A stretch of 20,499 bases of DNA from a virus, in IMG/VR virus record IMGVR_UViG_3300010883_000661, positions 1 through 20,499 of that record; one strand, written 5' to 3'. Below, in pieces: positions 1-16,000 of this stretch (within the stretch, counting starts at the first letter, position 1; each line of letters opens with the position of its first letter). Made by a program: the position numbers and the translations under genes. Under the pieces are notes generated by a model, which saw nothing but the letters and a program-made list of their open reading frames with translations, was not told the DNA's origin and made no database searches.

Positions 1-152
1 TACGCTTCAAAGAAAGGATCGCCGTTGGGAGGACACACAAGCCGTAGTTGGTGAGTCCCTTCATCTGGCTTCCAAAAGTTTTCCGAGGAGTCTCCGCCAC
101 GGCTAGTTAGAGCAGCGTGTTTCGCCCTCATCTTGTTTAAATCAATACCCAT
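1..152 (-). CDS. 32: gp32-like single-stranded DNA-binding protein, N-terminal fragment (cut by the left edge)
   Basis: Translating leftward from the ATG at 152 gives about 50 residues beginning MGIDLNKMRAKHAAL, followed by a Gly/Ser segment, then NFWKPDEG and a PPNGDPFFEA stretch. This is the N-terminal arrangement of T4-type gp32: a basic helix used for cooperative protein-protein contacts, then the start of the OB-fold core with the FWKP motif. The family coats single-stranded DNA in replication, recombination and repair. The start is supported by AAGGAG about eight bases upstream. A sigma70-like promoter lies 35-65 bases upstream. The zinc-binding core and acidic tail of the family would lie outside the window, so the assignment rests on the N-terminus only. 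Confidence 0.85.
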   Translation of the reverse strand, partial: MGIDLNKMRAKHAALTSRGGDSSENFWKPDEGTHQLRLVCPPNGDPFFEA

Positions 153-217: not shown

Positions 218-652
218 CTAATTTTCCTCGGGAGGGTCCTCTATTTCAAAAATCTTTATAACTTCAAGAGGATGTGTCACAAGTTTTTTCCCCTGAGTCA
301 AGAGGAGGGTATTGCGGTAGGGTTCCCAGTCTAGTTTAAGATGTTTGCCAACCGAGCCGCTATACTGAGAGGCTACGGCCAGATTCAGAGCATTGATAGT
401 GTAAAGAGTATTAGTAAGTTTCTTCCGATGGACCCGAATAGTATATAAGTGAGGGTGGTATGACCCCCTTGGTCCTGGGGAGAGGTTATAAGTAAGAACC
501 TGCTTGCTAGGATCTTCTGTGTTGTGTAGAAGAAAAATGTAGTTGTTAGAAAGCTCTAACTTATTAACAATAAACTCTACCTCTTTTGTAACCTGCTCTT
601 CTGAAAACTCATTTAAAAAAGATGCTAGTAAAATACCTCGGGGTGATGTCAT
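218..652 (-). CDS. Conserved-looking phage protein of unknown function, 144 residues
   Basis: I cannot assign a function. The protein is 144 residues with no signal peptide or membrane segment. The N-terminal 45 residues form a likely amphipathic helix followed by a hydrophobic strand (YIFLLHN). The centre contains LYTIRVHRKK and TNTLYTINALN, and the C-terminal part has LDWEPYRNTLLL. The helix-rich TNTLYTINALN segment looks like the core of a small conserved phage family, but I recall no described role. The start is supported by AAGGA about nine bases upstream. It lies 75 bases downstream of the FtsZ-like gene and just before the gp32 promoter, so it is probably the last gene of the leftward structural transcript. 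The acidic C-terminus (IEDPPEEN) is notable. Confidence 0.75.
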   Translation of the reverse strand: MTSPRGILLASFLNEFSEEQVTKEVEFIVNKLELSNNYIFLLHNTEDPSKQVLTYNLSPGPRGSYHPHLYTIRVHRKKLTNTLYTINALNLAVASQYSGSVGKHLKLDWEPYRNTLLLTQGKKLVTHPLEVIKIFEIEDPPEEN

Positions 653-727: not shown

Positions 728-1618
728 TTAGGAGTCTGTCCAAAGGGGCTGTGGTTCTGAAGTATAAAAAACGCCCAAAAGATAGGAAGTTGTGGTATCT
801 ACCGGCACAACAGAATAAGAAAAAGACAACTCAGCGCTGAGTGCGTTTGATCCAGCCTCCATGTGTTCGTTAATCTGTCTCATTAAAGATGAATTAGTAG
901 AAATCTCGTCGCCAGGAATGCCATAAAAGAATTCCGCCATCCGAGGATTGTCCATCCTATACAATAAGTTAATAGGATTAGGACCTTCTTCGAGAGATGA
1001 TATCCCCAGCGTAGCCAGTCGGCATCCTACGGGTTTTTCGGAAAAGGTTGAAATAATGGTATCACTGTTTTCAAAGTAAAAAAGCATTCCAAGGGTATAA
1101 GCAATGATTTCCGCAGTTCGCTGTTCATATAAATTGATAGGTACATCTCCGACCATTCCCTCGACAAAGGATCTGTCAATAAATATCATCCTCTCCAGTA
1201 ACCCACTCCTGGCATATTCTTGAAGGGCTCCGAACGAAAGACGAGTATTCTGTACGATTTGAAGCGAGGCCAATGAGTTGCTAGGCTTTATATAGAAAAG
1301 ATTAATCTGGCAGTGCTGAAGTAGTTCCATTAGGCGTAGTAAACACCCAGTGATGGGCGATCCTCCCTCTACTACTATCAACACCTCTTGGCTATTCTCT
1401 AAACTGTCAAGATATAACCTTAGCTCCTCCTGTGGGAAATTCTTTTCATATTCTTCCATCGTCTCATGGCGTCCGAGGCTAAAGATGTTGTTATGAGAGC
1501 TATTCTCTACTATCTGATAGGTCCGATACTCTGGGTATTGTCGTAGGTCCTCAGCGATTCGTGAGCCCAGGCTCCCAACCCCGATAACTCTTATCTTGTC
1601 CCTAGATTTAGAATTCAT
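728..1618 (-). CDS. Divergent FtsZ/tubulin-superfamily-like protein, 296 residues
   Basis: The N-terminus (residues 10-21) reads RVIGVGSLGSRI, like the first strand and T1 glycine loop of FtsZ. Residues 65-92 follow the FtsZ pattern of helix, hydrophobic strand (EVLIVVEGG) and glycine loop, with GGSPITG in place of the tubulin signature GGGTGTG. A long helix at about 164-182 is followed by ENSDTII, matching the position of the catalytic T7 loop (N.D..D/E) but lacking the last acidic residue. Then comes GCRLATLGISS, resembling the FtsZ strand after T7. The C-terminal part (245-285) fits the helix-strand pattern of the FtsZ second domain. Length suits phage PhuZ/TubZ-type proteins. The start has GGGAGG five bases upstream, inside the polymerase gene, and overlaps it by 11 bases, implying translational coupling. 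The fold is inferred by eye; GTPase activity is doubtful. A non-tubulin Rossmann-like protein is the main alternative. Confidence 0.5.
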   Translation of the reverse strand: MNSKSRDKIRVIGVGSLGSRIAEDLRQYPEYRTYQIVENSSHNNIFSLGRHETMEEYEKNFPQEELRLYLDSLENSQEVLIVVEGGSPITGCLLRLMELLQHCQINLFYIKPSNSLASLQIVQNTRLSFGALQEYARSGLLERMIFIDRSFVEGMVGDVPINLYEQRTAEIIAYTLGMLFYFENSDTIISTFSEKPVGCRLATLGISSLEEGPNPINLLYRMDNPRMAEFFYGIPGDEISTNSSLMRQINEHMEAGSNALSAELSFSYSVVPVDTTTSYLLGVFYTSEPQPLWTDS

Positions 1619-2819
1619 AAAGTCCTCCCAAGTTTTTCCCCTTCTTTCTGTTTATAAGAAATTTTCCAAAGTTAGTTGACCCGAAAAGATGAGAAATAGC
1701 ATCGATGTGCTGGAGGTCTCCCTCCGTCATATCTAGTACTACGGAGTCATGAATCAAAAAGGCAATATGGGAAGAGGCCCCCCGTTGTCGTAAAAGCTCA
1801 TTAATTTTAAGAGATTGTTTAAGAAGGAGTTCCGCCGCCGTAGACTGGACTAGGTAATTCAAAGCGTAGTGCTTCTGGACATCATCAATCCGTTTACCGA
1901 AAGGAGTAATTATAGTGTTGTTGATCCAAAACTTATCCAAGAGTTTATCTTTTTGATAAAAGGAAGATAAATGTTCTGACTGTGCCGCATCGACTGATGT
2001 CTTAGAGCCATAGAGCCAGGCGAAGAAGGCGGTCTTGGCCTGTTCTCGGGTGGCGAGATTAGAAAAAATCTTCTCTAGATGAAACTTGTGAACATCCTCC
2101 GTGGGTTGGGAGTGTCCCAAAAGCCCCAATAGCGTGCGGATTTCGGCCCCATTAAAATCTAGCTCAACATAATAATCATTCTTTGGGATTATCGCAGTGC
2201 GTAGAGACTGCGGGAGGGTAAGGATAGGGAATGTATTAGGTTTTGTAGTAAGCCGTCCTGTTCGAGATCCAAACTGGTTATAGTGTACCTGTCTATTACT
2301 CTGGAGGGTTCGATCTATAATAGTTGACAAGTGCGGAATACTCCTGAACGAATTTAGAGTCTTCTCGTCTATGCGTACTTGACGAGTAGAGACATCCTCT
2401 AGCAGCTTAGAGAGGCAATGGTAAAAGGAGTACCTTTGGGGTCTAGGGTGGTTCTTAAAGACATATTCTGTTATTTTATTTTTTATTTCACACAGATCTA
2501 TGAGGAAGCGCTTTGGAACTAGATCATAAAAGCAGTTTTCGTTAGTGTCTACCTTAGAAAGTTGGAGAGATCGCTTAAACGCACTGATCTTCGTACTTAC
2601 GTCTTCCCAGTCCTCTTGTAGATATTCAGGTAAAACCTTTGACAAAGGTTTGCCCTCTAGGTAAAGAGAAGCGTACTCTATATCCAAGTCCTTTAAGTAC
2701 GCAGAGTGATTCCACGTTTGGGAGAGGGTTGAGGGGAATTCATCGGGGGAAAAGAGAAGCTCTCCTCCTGCATAAATCCCAACGCATTCAGACTTATCGT
2801 CCAATGTTTGAAATATCAT
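1608..2819 (-). CDS. Truncated family A (PolA-like) DNA polymerase, about 403 residues
   Basis: The C-terminal 220 residues carry the family A palm and fingers. TGRL at about 187-190 corresponds to the PolA TGRLSS region. Motif A is VELDFNGAEIR (218-228), with the metal-binding Asp at 221. Motif B is R258-x3-K262-x7-Y270-G271, an exact family pattern. NYLVQST (about 321-327) matches the conserved N...QG region. Motif C is HDS (357-359), with Ser in place of the usual Glu. The N-terminal 185 residues show no DxE or other 3'-5' or 5'-3' exonuclease motif, and the fingers are shorter than in E. coli Pol I. I chose the ATG at 2819 with an AGG-type site; an in-frame TTG at 2834 lacks a ribosome binding site. 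It follows the 490-residue structural-like gene by 11 bases and overlaps the FtsZ-like gene. Polymerase family is clear; biological role (replication, gap filling, repair) is not. Confidence 0.85.
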   Translation of the reverse strand: MIFQTLDDKSECVGIYAGGELLFSPDEFPSTLSQTWNHSAYLKDLDIEYASLYLEGKPLSKVLPEYLQEDWEDVSTKISAFKRSLQLSKVDTNENCFYDLVPKRFLIDLCEIKNKITEYVFKNHPRPQRYSFYHCLSKLLEDVSTRQVRIDEKTLNSFRSIPHLSTIIDRTLQSNRQVHYNQFGSRTGRLTTKPNTFPILTLPQSLRTAIIPKNDYYVELDFNGAEIRTLLGLLGHSQPTEDVHKFHLEKIFSNLATREQAKTAFFAWLYGSKTSVDAAQSEHLSSFYQKDKLLDKFWINNTIITPFGKRIDDVQKHYALNYLVQSTAAELLLKQSLKINELLRQRGASSHIAFLIHDSVVLDMTEGDLQHIDAISHLFGSTNFGKFLINRKKGKNLGGLYEF

Positions 2820-2830
2820 TATAAAACCTA

Positions 2831-4303
2831 TCAATAATTCTGTTCTGGTGGTTTCCCTAGTATACCTTGGTCTGCTCCAGGTGTAAACATTCTGTTCTCG
2901 GTAACAGGTCCGATGTACCGCTCTTGCATATACTCTAAAGCCCTTAGGAACTTAATGTGCGGCGTACCGTCAGAAAAATGATAGCGGGTTAAAATGGACT
3001 GGAGGTCTTTTTTTCTTTCTGCTGGCGATTTCTTATATCCCTTTTCGAGAAGGCGTAAATAGTAATAGCAAGACAGCGACCACTGAGGCCCGTAGCTCCC
3101 CACTTCTAAGGAAAACTGCTGAGGATCCACCCCTTGGCGAAGGTGAACAGTATTACGGTGTATAGCACAAGGGCGGCGGTCTGCGTTATATTCAAATATA
3201 TACGGTGATCCCTCCACATACACATTATAAAAGCCTATCAAATAATATTTTAATATTTCCATATCTGATGCCCACGTTTCCTGGTAGGCGTTTTGAAAAA
3301 CAATATTAGCTATTTTTTCCTGCGTGTGGAAGAGGGTCTGCGCCAAGGGTTCGAATGCTTCGTAGCGACCGGCATGCCGCAAGACGTGTTCTAGTCCGGG
3401 TATCGCTGAATAACCGTAAGGCTCAGGGATAGTAGGGTCTGTATAAACCGGTTCATCACAGGGTCCTATATACATATTAAATGGACCCGTAGCGGGTAGT
3501 TTACTCTGATCGTCAACTCCTACCATATACTCCACCATGGGTGGGGAAGAGATATCAGCGCAGAATCGCCAAGGGGCGTTTTTATCAATTGAAAATCCAT
3601 ACTCCGTAGCAATTTTAGCTACTAAGGAAAAGTTTTGATCATAGAAAAATGATTTTTCTTTTTCAAAGTCATCCGCATGTGAGTCATCGCTAATCTCTAT
3701 TACCAAGCCAGTGCTTAAGGGAGAACAATAAACACTTTCTAAGAATCCGCTTAGTGTAACTGGACCTGCAAAGGGGGCTGTCTTCTCGCAAAACTTACCG
3801 AAATAGTTGAGGAAGTCCTGTACATTCCTTATTTTATTCCCTCGGTTAAAGCTTAAAAAATCTTGGGTAAAGGCGGGGTAAATTATGTTTAGCATATATT
3901 CATGGTATGAGGCTAGCGGACTGACCCAAGCTTTAGTTGCCGTAGGAGCGCTGTAAGGCCCGTCATCATATAGTATATTTTCCTGCACAAGTCTGCGGAT
4001 ACGATCATTAAAATCTCGCCATGCATCTGCTACAAAGTTTACTGTAAAAAGCAGTTCACCGTCAGTATAACGTAGCTGTTTTAAAAAGCCTTCGTTTACT
4101 CGGATAGTATTTCCCCCCACCCCGGCCCTCGCATAAAAACGATCAGTGCCCCAGAAATCAAAATAGTTTGTAATATCGTAGGAGTCAAATAGGACATCCT
4201 TAAATGCCTGTCTCTCGTCGAAAGTAAAGCGAGCGCCGCCGGTGTTTGAAGCGTAAGTATACAGATCAAAATTATCAGAATTAAATGTCTTAGGCTGTGC
4301 CAT
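2831..4303 (-). CDS. Probable virion-associated protein of unknown function, 490 residues
   Basis: I do not recognise a named family. The protein is rich in aromatic residues (many Tyr and Phe) and has no signal peptide, membrane helix or long coiled coil. A segment at about 225-260 (FSLVAKIATEYGF, then DKNAPWRF) looks like a conserved core. The C-terminal quarter holds VGSYGPQWSLSCYYYLR and a basic helix. The ATG at 4303 has a near-perfect AAGGAGG eight bases upstream, whose first bases overlap the stop of the hub-like gene. Tight linkage to the hub-like gene, and the strong ribosome binding site typical of late genes, suggest a tail or baseplate component made in quantity. That role is inferred from context only. 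Confidence 0.7.
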   Translation of the reverse strand: MAQPKTFNSDNFDLYTYASNTGGARFTFDERQAFKDVLFDSYDITNYFDFWGTDRFYARAGVGGNTIRVNEGFLKQLRYTDGELLFTVNFVADAWRDFNDRIRRLVQENILYDDGPYSAPTATKAWVSPLASYHEYMLNIIYPAFTQDFLSFNRGNKIRNVQDFLNYFGKFCEKTAPFAGPVTLSGFLESVYCSPLSTGLVIEISDDSHADDFEKEKSFFYDQNFSLVAKIATEYGFSIDKNAPWRFCADISSPPMVEYMVGVDDQSKLPATGPFNMYIGPCDEPVYTDPTIPEPYGYSAIPGLEHVLRHAGRYEAFEPLAQTLFHTQEKIANIVFQNAYQETWASDMEILKYYLIGFYNVYVEGSPYIFEYNADRRPCAIHRNTVHLRQGVDPQQFSLEVGSYGPQWSLSCYYYLRLLEKGYKKSPAERKKDLQSILTRYHFSDGTPHIKFLRALEYMQERYIGPVTENRMFTPGADQGILGKPPEQNY

Positions 4304-12886: not shown

Positions 12887-15800
12887 TTAATCATCAAAAG
12901 CGGCCCCGCTATTAGTGACTACGAAGTCAATAGCAAAATATTCCGCAGCCCGAGTGGGTTTTACAATGAGCTTTGCATAGATAATATTGCGATCAATCAT
13001 ATCTGGAGTTGTTGTAGACTCGTCCAAAATCAACCGGAAGTCTTCAATCCCAAACTGAGATCTTACTGAGTCAAGGACTGGCGTCGCCTGCTGAGTAAAA
13101 CGAGTCCAGGTGTCTCGGGTGTTTGGTGCAAAAATTAACCTTGATGCAATAAACGAGATTTCTCTCTTAAGGAAAATCAGTAGGCGTCGAACGTTGATCC
13201 GGTCTAGTGCAGAAGCTGTCTGTTGAAGCGTTTTTTGCCCAAAGATGACAATTCCTTCAGCAGGGAACTTAGCTATAGGATTAATATTAGCCTCGTAAAG
13301 ATCGTCTCGGTTGTCCGAAGTTAACCGGCGAGACACTTCAAGTACTGGAATGCCCGCAGCGCCTTCGCTAAGACCGCCTCGGCTAAAGCCTGCCGGAGCA
13401 AACCAAGGTGCCGAGATCCTGTCGGTAGTAGAAAGGGCTCCCATGGCCGCCACTGAAGGTGGAGCCCACAGTGTGCGATTATTAATTGTATCCTGGATCA
13501 GAACCCAGGGATAATAAGCTGCGCCGTAGCTGTTGTTAAGATTACGTCCCTGTAAATCAGCAATAGCTTGGGCAACCGTAAAGTTATTGCGGTCTTCGGC
13601 ACTAGCACTATTTTCGGTATCAGCGGTATAAACGTAAGGAAGATCTATAATGGCTAGTGCGTCAGCCCGCTTCTCTACCATATCTAACAGATGGTTAGTA
13701 ACAAGGTTCTGAGTGACACCGGGCATAGCAACGGCATTGTACTGAAGCATTTCTGCCTCAGATACCATATCGATAGACCTTCTAAGAGAATAAAGAGGTG
13801 CGCTTGTCATATCTGTCTTAGACGCCATCAGACTATTCCGGAAAGGATCTCTTTCTCTTACATCGAATCCGGTTGAGCCTCCGAATAAGACAGTGGTGAA
13901 CTGGTTCAAGCTACCAGTCAGGAGACGATCATAGGTACCATCACCTCGATAGCTCGTTCCGGCAGTGCGTGATCCCGACACATAATAATATTCCCCTGAT
14001 GTGGTCGAGCCAGAAATATCATCTAGTGTGAACACCCAGGAAATTTCTACAGCGTCAGAGGAGCCAGCAGTAGGATTACCAGCTATGTCGTGGGTTGTAC
14101 TGTAGGGGGTATCTTGGTACCCTTTAGCACGAGAAGTAAGATAGTCAGAAATGCCAGGGTCGGCCGTTGTATCACTGGTACTACGCCCTGTCCAAGCACC
14201 CCAATAGGTCGAACGCAAGTCCTTGGGAGAACCCCAGTTCGAGCCTATTCGCAGAGGCATAGAAGGCATCATGACGGAGCCTGAAAATAAAGCGGTTTCC
14301 GTACCGGCGGGGGTAGCGGTCCATCCAGCACCGAAGCTTAATAGTTGTACTTCTCCGCTGACTAGTGCCGGAATACCTCCAAGGTCTCCGAACAGCGTTG
14401 CCGGGCCGCCATCAAATATTGCAGCAATGCCACTTCCGGCACTCACATCTGCATAACTACCTAGAGCATCCGGAGCGCCGCTGCCGCTGGTGAAGGAGAT
14501 GTCCCTGTTCTTAAGCGGACCGAAGACGCCAAACGGAAGATACTCGGGCTCTACTGAACCTCTTTCCACGTCCTCGTCCATTGCCACTCGTACCTGGGTA
14601 GAGCGATTTGCATATTGTCCATAAGTACGATTAGTTAAAGTAGTAGTATCAAACTTTTCGTATTGATCGCCAATCATACGAGCAATATAATTTGGAGAGG
14701 CTGGGTTAAGATTTAACTCGTCATATCTTTCGAGAATTCGGGGGTTAGCGTCGGTGTCGTTAAGGGCACGGACAAGAACACTAAATGATCCATAATCTTG
14801 ATAGGCCCCAACGGGTCCCTTAATATTTGTAATAGAAATTTTCACTTGTTTCTGAACATCTTCGCCTTCAGAAAGAGATTCAAAACGAAAGAGCTTCTGT
14901 TGGTTCTTGGACACGAAGGAAGCCGTAGCATTTGAAAGGTCTTGCCCGATAAACCACCCAGTGGTAGAGCGAGTAGCCCCGTAACGTTTGTCATTTTGAG
15001 TTACAAGGTAAGTAGCACCTTTTTGATCCCTCAGTGGGAAGATGGCGACATGGTATTTGGTAGGTACAGATCCGGAAGGGGATGAGGCACCAGCCAGTAA
15101 CCCCAGCGAAGCGGCCGTGTCACGTAGATTGTCTGCGCTGCCAAGGACACTACCCGTAGTGGACAAACGATACCCAAAACTTTCCCCTACCCAATATTCT
15201 CCGCCTTGGCTAGCAGTCTGAGTGGCTGGAGTTGTGATAGTAGAGTTAGTAATTGTAGGGTTGGTGTTTAATACCTTGCGTAAATAGTTTTTACTCGCAG
15301 GGTTAAAAGAAATATTTACATATTCTAGATCGGCAGCTAGCCCGGTAGAACTGATGCCGACCTTAATCTCGTTGTTCGCATCAGTTTCATAAAGCTCACA
15401 TGCCGACGCCGTCAAAGTTAATGCGGATAGTCCGGCACGGCTCCCGGAAAGGATGGCACGACCGGCGTCCAAATAAAGAGTTGCAGCCAAGGCCCCCGTT
15501 ACGGCTAACTGAGGATGTAGTGTTGCCGGTCCGCTGGGCATATTGAGCGAGGAAGAAGGCCAAACAGCGATTCCCCAGGCTCCGCCGTTTACTGTTGTTG
15601 ACGCACCTGCCCCAGGACCCAGGTCGCCAGCCCTCCAGCCAGCATATCCAGATTCATCAGTAGTGTTGGGATCTTGAAATTCCCCTACTCGCATGAAAGT
15701 TAAAGGAGCATTATTTCGCAGCCAGGCCTGAGCCGCATAAGCAGCATAGGTTGGTGCGTTCCTACTATTATCTCGCCATATGTCGGTGCCTTCACCGCCG

Positions 15801-16000
15801 GCAGCAGGATTCCCAAAAACCTCTACAAAATCATTGAAAGAGGTAACTGTTACGGGCTTGTTCAGCGGCCCTTTGGCAGCCGACCCCAGGATCAAAGGAC
15901 CGATAGCAGAGGAATCTGCTGGCAGTTGGGAGTTATCTATTTCATTAATGAAAACTCCAGGCGATATAAACTTAAATTTTCTTGAAGAATTGTCAGCCAT
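12887..16000 (-). CDS. 18: Tail sheath protein, gp18-like, 1037 residues with large insertion
   Basis: The N-terminal 115 residues have the sheath signature: ISPGVFINEIDNS, GPLILGSAAKGPLNKP, FVEVFGNP and a helix ending AAQAWLRN. The C-terminal 220 residues are the conserved contractile-sheath domain: INVRRLLIFLKREI, LIFAPNTRDTWTRF, then IDRNIIYAKLIVKPTRAAEYF near the end, which in other sheaths forms the interlocking arm and inner shell. T4 gp18 has 659 residues, so about 380 extra residues are inserted between these domains. They are rich in Gly, Ser, Thr and Ala and look like surface-exposed beta domains, which in other phages decorate the tail exterior. The start at 16000 has GAGGGG eleven bases upstream. 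The sheath contracts to drive the tube through the host envelope. Confidence 0.93.
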   Translation of the reverse strand: MADNSSRKFKFISPGVFINEIDNSQLPADSSAIGPLILGSAAKGPLNKPVTVTSFNDFVEVFGNPAAGGEGTDIWRDNSRNAPTYAAYAAQAWLRNNAPLTFMRVGEFQDPNTTDESGYAGWRAGDLGPGAGASTTVNGGAWGIAVWPSSSLNMPSGPATLHPQLAVTGALAATLYLDAGRAILSGSRAGLSALTLTASACELYETDANNEIKVGISSTGLAADLEYVNISFNPASKNYLRKVLNTNPTITNSTITTPATQTASQGGEYWVGESFGYRLSTTGSVLGSADNLRDTAASLGLLAGASSPSGSVPTKYHVAIFPLRDQKGATYLVTQNDKRYGATRSTTGWFIGQDLSNATASFVSKNQQKLFRFESLSEGEDVQKQVKISITNIKGPVGAYQDYGSFSVLVRALNDTDANPRILERYDELNLNPASPNYIARMIGDQYEKFDTTTLTNRTYGQYANRSTQVRVAMDEDVERGSVEPEYLPFGVFGPLKNRDISFTSGSGAPDALGSYADVSAGSGIAAIFDGGPATLFGDLGGIPALVSGEVQLLSFGAGWTATPAGTETALFSGSVMMPSMPLRIGSNWGSPKDLRSTYWGAWTGRSTSDTTADPGISDYLTSRAKGYQDTPYSTTHDIAGNPTAGSSDAVEISWVFTLDDISGSTTSGEYYYVSGSRTAGTSYRGDGTYDRLLTGSLNQFTTVLFGGSTGFDVRERDPFRNSLMASKTDMTSAPLYSLRRSIDMVSEAEMLQYNAVAMPGVTQNLVTNHLLDMVEKRADALAIIDLPYVYTADTENSASAEDRNNFTVAQAIADLQGRNLNNSYGAAYYPWVLIQDTINNRTLWAPPSVAAMGALSTTDRISAPWFAPAGFSRGGLSEGAAGIPVLEVSRRLTSDNRDDLYEANINPIAKFPAEGIVIFGQKTLQQTASALDRINVRRLLIFLKREISFIASRLIFAPNTRDTWTRFTQQATPVLDSVRSQFGIEDFRLILDESTTTPDMIDRNIIYAKLIVKPTRAAEYFAIDFVVTNSGAAFDD

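Follow-up and report, generated by a model that had tools for sequence, protein, structure and literature searches.

A predicted tubulin fold with decayed GTPase loops encoded next to a DNA polymerase in marine T4-like phages

Introduction

What kind of protein is encoded by the 296-aa reading frame near the beginning of this phage record, and what may it do there? The window, i.e., the whole stretch of 20,499 nt analysed here, had received a first-pass annotation that took this gene for a divergent member of the tubulin/FtsZ superfamily with degraded loops, lying at the end of a structural operon. To our knowledge, characterised proteins of this superfamily are generally filament formers. We refer to the gene as pseudo-tubulin, and examine its reading frame, predicted fold, relatives, GTPase site and neighbourhood. 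Our partial coverage of the literature gave no paper on this family or on a T4-like phage with two tubulins, an absence that is weak evidence.

Materials and methods

Relatives were collected from IMG/VR: two loci were found with the window protein itself, ten with a five-member alignment, and many further loci through neighbour genes. A profile detected the pseudo-tubulin gene in 121 fetched loci, which encode 80 distinct proteins; 48 of these were retained after clustering at 75% identity, and the alignment, the tree and the column counts use these 48. The AlphaFold2 model of the window protein was built on this 48-row alignment. Positions of T6, H7 and T7 were mapped via profile alignment and secondary structure, not by residue-level superposition.

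Reading frame and gene start

The reading frame begins with ATG, and its exact bounds were confirmed (Table 1). The motifs on which the first-pass annotation had been based are all present in the translation: RVIGVGSLGSRI at residues 10–21, EVLIVVEGGSPITG at 78–91, ENSDTII at 183–189 and GCRLATLGISS at 198–208. With its ATG preceded by GGGAGGA, homologues in 121 loci and low dN/dS, the reading frame is a real gene. Because dN/dS is 0.016–0.13 in 13 close pairs, the sequences indicate that pseudo-tubulin is under strong purifying selection, as a working protein despite the decay of its site and not as debris.

The stop codon TAA of the preceding gene, a family A DNA polymerase (PolA), occupies 1608–1610, and the two genes overlap by 11 nt; the coding strand across the end of PolA and the start of pseudo-tubulin reads GGGAGGActttATGaattcTAA. 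With this overlap, translation of pseudo-tubulin is likely to be coupled to that of PolA.

Table 1. Positions in the window of the pseudo-tubulin gene, its structural elements and adjacent genes
Feature	Position	Strand	Basis or remark
gp32-like SSB gene, 5' end, cut by the record end	1..152	(-)	compared with locus L001
Conserved 144-aa neighbour protein; in 94 fetched loci	218..652	(-)	
Pseudo-tubulin gene, 296 aa, predicted tubulin/FtsZ-superfamily fold	728..1618	(-)	ORF call and structure prediction
C-terminal beta domain S7–S10, residues 201–286	761..1018	(-)	model and structural alignment
T7/H8 position, residues 184–200; without conserved acidic pair, without H8 helix in the model	1019..1069	(-)	
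Core helix H7, residues 161–183; Asn169 of clade B is Ala in the window protein	1070..1138	(-)	model, profile alignment and column counts
T6 position FIDRS, residues 146–150; Asn149 of clade B is Arg in the window protein	1169..1183	(-)	profile alignment and column counts
T4-loop position EGGSPITG, residues 84–91; GGGTGTG signature not retained	1346..1369	(-)	column counts
S1-T1 loop RVIGVGSLGSRIA, residues 10–22; G13, G15 and G18 conserved family-wide	1553..1591	(-)	column counts
Shine-Dalgarno GGGAGGA (1623–1629) and pseudo-tubulin start codon (1616–1618), both within the PolA gene	1608..1629	(-)	
Compact family A DNA polymerase (PolA), about 403–408 aa, polymerase part only, conserved start MIFQTLDD	1608..2834	(-)	directly upstream

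Predicted fold

Sequence scans of the window protein gave no significant match in Pfam, PHROG or PDB, and the cut-off of Pfam Tubulin (PF00091) was not reached; the latter family matches 3 of the 48 relatives weakly (best E 0.0055). The scans being blank, the fold is visible only via structure or relatives. The AlphaFold2 model of the window protein (pLDDT 93.7, pTM 0.91) has the two-domain tubulin fold, with a GTPase-type N-domain, the long core helix H7 and a C-terminal beta domain. Its elements follow the order S1-H1-S2-...-S4-H4-S5-H5-S6-H6-H7, and then come four C-terminal strands and one helical region. In a Foldseek search against PDB, each of the 50 matches listed is an FtsZ or a TubZ (lowest E 1.2e-14, probability 1.00), and a second structure aligner, covering residues 2–296, gave Z scores of 25.0 for CetZ, 24.9 for Aquifex FtsZ, 24.4 for TubZ and about 23 for tubulins. 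In a viral library, an uncultured Caudovirales phage gave the best match, with a protein that bears the name FtsZ.

On the basis of this model, the window protein almost certainly belongs to the tubulin/FtsZ superfamily, and the identity first proposed from the letters is borne out by the N-domain as well as by the C-terminal beta domain. The first-pass annotation had named a plain Rossmann or ThiF fold as the contrary outcome, and the predicted structure shows neither. That the protein is instead a plain Rossmann dehydrogenase, a KtrA/TrkA-like or a ThiF-like protein is hardly credible: its GxGxxG start does give weak matches to the TrkA_N and NAD_binding families, but the structural match to the tubulin superfamily extends over the full length, including the H7 core helix and the C-terminal domain.

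Family and distribution

The records that carry the gene are marine T4-like phage loci, and tblastn with three family members as queries found no homologue among about 50,700 isolate phage records. The tree of the 48 proteins is divided into four sets, namely clade A (28 rows), clade B (15), clade C (3) and a pair formed by the window protein and L014, which stands on a long stem of 1.55 changes per column. The pseudo-tubulin family is thus a new, divergent and fast-evolving branch of the tubulin superfamily in marine T4-like phages.

Decay of the GTPase site

Column counts differ among the loops of the site. The T1 glycine loop is retained, with G13 in 47/48 proteins, G15 in 48/48 and G18 in 44/48. 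At T4, G85 (48/48) and G91 (45/48) are the only glycines retained, and neither GGGTGTG nor GGGxGxG is found. The glycine-rich phosphate loop T3 is absent in all clades, residues 54–66 being a MEEYEKNF-type sequence. No clade has a conserved acidic position in residues 184–195, residue 186 being non-acidic in 16/48, and residues 184–200 form no helix in the AlphaFold2 model, i.e., H8 is missing there.

The guanine contacts of T6 and H7 depend on the clade. Asn149 (T6) and Asn169 (H7) are present in 15/15 members of clade B, where they align, in the profile alignment, with Asn204 and Asn224 of a canonical phage tubulin described below, and some relatives may therefore still bind nucleotide. Position 149 is Arg or Lys in 24 of the 28 clade A proteins, position 169 being mostly Ser, Ala or Tyr. 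In the window protein and L014, the former position is Arg and the latter Ala or Val, and both contacts are lost. The first-pass annotation had reported degraded loops with one T7 acid replaced. The loss at T7 stands, but the conserved acids have disappeared altogether and not at one residue, and the decay goes further than was then proposed, to the T3 glycine loop and, in the clade of the window, to the T6 and H7 base contacts.

Judging from these positions, we infer that pseudo-tubulin is a putative pseudo-GTPase, which would not carry out GTP-driven treadmilling polymerisation. Because PhuZ D190A, a catalytically inactive mutant, still polymerises with GTP (PMC4244570), a loss confined to T7 would be compatible with filaments. 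The window protein could be imagined as an active GTP-dependent filament former with unusual loops, like PhuZ or TubZ, and the persistence of the whole fold, of the T1 glycines and of part of the T4 glycines, together with the Asn residues kept by clade B, speaks for this. Absence of the T3 glycine loop, of GGGTGTG at T4 and of conserved T7 acids, the lack of H8 in the model and the disappearance of base contacts in the window's own clade argue against it, and we regard such activity as quite improbable.

Replication neighbourhood

The gene had been placed at the end of a structural operon, and this placement has to be corrected: it is the second gene of the replication block that follows, after PolA. 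The order of the block is PolA, pseudo-tubulin, the 144-aa protein, gp32-like SSB, UvsX-like recombinase and 5'-3' exonuclease, the window stopping inside the SSB gene. Upstream of the block lie T4-like structural genes, among them those for the tail sheath, the gp19 tube and the Gp23 capsid. The tail sheath protein (1037 aa; 12887–16000 in the window) is about twice the usual size, and the Pfam sheath domains match its C-terminal part only.

PolA is on the same strand in 121/121 loci and lies within 59 nt directly upstream of pseudo-tubulin in 117/121, a count that is biased by the retrieval of many loci through PolA; the loci retrieved by the query alone also show this link. The exceptions in spacing are three loci with a gap of 319 nt and one with 2,468 nt; in L114, the sole locus with a gap of this size, about 2.5 kb are inserted between PolA and pseudo-tubulin (between 4278 and 6755).

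At about 400 aa, PolA leaves no room for a 3'-5' exonuclease domain, and the 5'-3' exonuclease is a separate gene in these phages. Together, the compact PolA and the separate exonuclease look like a Pol I divided over two genes, which would remove primers and fill gaps. In the large records, a gene for a PolIII alpha subunit is also present, some 12 kb further downstream, and we found neither PolB nor the T4 clamp family in four long records. As PolIII alpha is present, we dropped the idea of PolA as the sole polymerase; the role of replicase does not have to fall to PolA. Judged by PolA, Flavobacterium Immutovirus is the closest isolate lineage, and it has the same PolA-SSB-RecA-exo order without pseudo-tubulin. 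The 144-aa neighbour is strongly conserved, with a core of HRKKxTNTLYTINALN; its model (pLDDT 89.4) gave no clear match in PDB (best E 0.11).

This neighbourhood bears on the idea that pseudo-tubulin acts on host FtsZ, as a poison or a cap, so that infected cells cease to divide. If its end surfaces are altered, a tubulin fold could attach to the end of an FtsZ filament, and FtsZ is a target of phage proteins such as T7 Gp0.4, lambda Kil and P1 Icd (PMC13423816, PMC3961180, PMC11897509). These known inhibitors are, however, small proteins, whereas the pseudo-tubulin gene almost always accompanies PolA in a replication block, and its product is not significantly similar in sequence to E. coli FtsZ (E 0.12). 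Nothing here speaks specifically for capping, and we consider an action on host FtsZ improbable.

A second, canonical tubulin in sister phages

A Pfam Tubulin search of the long records found a second tubulin gene of 378 aa, which is above the cut-offs of both Pfam Tubulin and TubZ-like_C (e.g., L125:1399-2535) and has canonical motifs, GGSGGGT at T4 and FDATDYDS at T7. It sits between a gp46-like gene and terminase/portal genes (names assigned by reading, not by family search), and is 88–100% identical across 80 loci of marine contigs. Such conservation is unusual for a phage protein, and two small membrane-type proteins flank the gene (L125:1399-2535, L127:808-1944). The literature covered has no description of this tubulin. 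The two tubulins are related in sequence: the pseudo-tubulin profile matches the second tubulin with E 9.5e-6 (0.32 for an unrelated neighbour as control), and the family profile matches it in 14/14 records, at about 1e-7 to 1e-6.

In clade A, the second tubulin is found on the same strand, about 30 kb upstream, in 11/11 records with at least 30.5 kb of upstream sequence; a twelfth record has an incomplete copy at its end, and three further records hold both genes. From clades B and C, the records that reach far enough upstream are L109, L110, L117 (by BLAST only) and L046, and no second tubulin was found in them. Nor was it found in 16 shorter or other records, which proves little alone, and the window record ends before the place expected for this gene. 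The clade A records reveal a lineage of T4-like marine phages, distinct from the nucleus-forming jumbo phages, whose genomes carry two tubulins each.

Pseudo-tubulin might serve the second tubulin as a partner, cap or adaptor without catalysis of its own, in the manner of a tubulin system with two subunits, and the pair would position phage DNA. The joint occurrence on one strand in all long clade A records and in the three others, and the relatedness of the two sequences, are consistent with this, and a filament that has many partners would be expected to show the high identity seen in the second tubulin. On the other hand, the four clade B and C records keep pseudo-tubulin without the second gene, the two genes are some 30 kb apart, and the window record stops short of the place in question. 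Loss of the T6/H7 Asn residues tracks the second tubulin in clades A and B, but this is broken by clade C, which has neither the Asn residues nor the second tubulin; a tie between the two was rejected on this ground, and the same clade argues against the partnership. We consider it unlikely, though worth keeping in mind.

Proposed role in replication

Our preferred reading, which we hold tentatively and at slightly below even chances, is that a dead tubulin fold has been reused as a scaffold or structural accessory for the replication machinery formed by PolA, SSB, UvsX and exonuclease. Pseudo-tubulin would be made at the same place as PolA, from overlapping genes, and would be a stable accessory of this machinery, whose tasks would be to remove primers, fill gaps and recombine DNA; it would keep or position these enzymes where the phage DNA is replicated. 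Among clade A phages, it may also tether the machinery to filaments of the second tubulin. The PolA link seen even with the query alone, and the SSB, UvsX and exonuclease genes downstream, in an order that Immutovirus keeps, point to this role; gene order and overlap, however, are linkage and not contact. As the Immutovirus module is without pseudo-tubulin, the protein is not required by every PolA of this type. A fuller proposal is possible but rather doubtful: the dead tubulin would be a stable subunit of a replication/repair complex in a widespread lineage of marine phages and, in part of this lineage, would form with the second tubulin a two-tubulin cytoskeleton that couples DNA synthesis to positioning.

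With its fold kept, with T3, T7 and part of base recognition lost and with its replication context, this widespread branch would represent a pseudo-GTPase that has been drawn into DNA metabolism. The tie to the PolA gene suggests that a cytoskeletal protein has come to assist the replication of viral DNA, and a link between phage replication and the phage cytoskeleton becomes directly testable.

Comparison with known systems

FtsZ, TubZ and CetZ (1fsz, 4ei7, 3zid) share with the model the same whole two-domain fold (Z 23–25 over 267–288 residues), including the T1 glycines and the H7 core helix. Compared with them, pseudo-tubulin has 10–16% identity, is without the T3 glycine loop, GGGTGTG and the T7 acids, and its model lacks H8 and has a shorter C-terminal domain. 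In comparison with TubZRC, where tubR and a centromere lie beside tubZ, the neighbours of the tubulin gene here are PolA and the 144-aa protein without a clear fold match. FtsZl1 and FtsZl2 are also strongly diverged branches of the superfamily, FtsZl1 being without recognisable T6-H7 (Makarova and Koonin, 2010, PMC2875224); these are cellular proteins with a membrane context and other C-terminal regions, whereas the pseudo-tubulin family still has a recognisable T6 and H7 and is found in a DNA replication context.

POLG2, an accessory of the mitochondrial PolA-family polymerase, is a dead synthetase fold reused in this way (PMC4419789), and shows, by analogy only, that a dead enzyme fold can turn into a polymerase accessory. 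The same logic, an enzyme fold without catalysis serving a family A polymerase, is what we hypothesise for pseudo-tubulin, with a tubulin fold in place of the synthetase fold and no homology between the two.

PhuZ of the nucleus-forming jumbo phages is likewise a tubulin-superfamily protein of phages. It forms filaments driven by GTP (PMC4244570), whereas pseudo-tubulin lacks the loops for catalysis and its gene is tied to that of PolA, in a T4-like genome with Gp23 capsid. The PhuZ type has an extended C-terminal tail and belongs to Chimalliviridae; PhuZ is not among the 50 Foldseek matches listed for PDB, which excludes nothing. The closest sequence relative found is the second phage tubulin, whose VDN...FW..INN (T6-H7) aligns with VDN...YY..LN of clade B, but which differs in its canonical GGSGGGT and T7, its 88–100% conservation and its gene context. 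Pseudo-tubulin is thus a new branch of a known superfamily in a new context.
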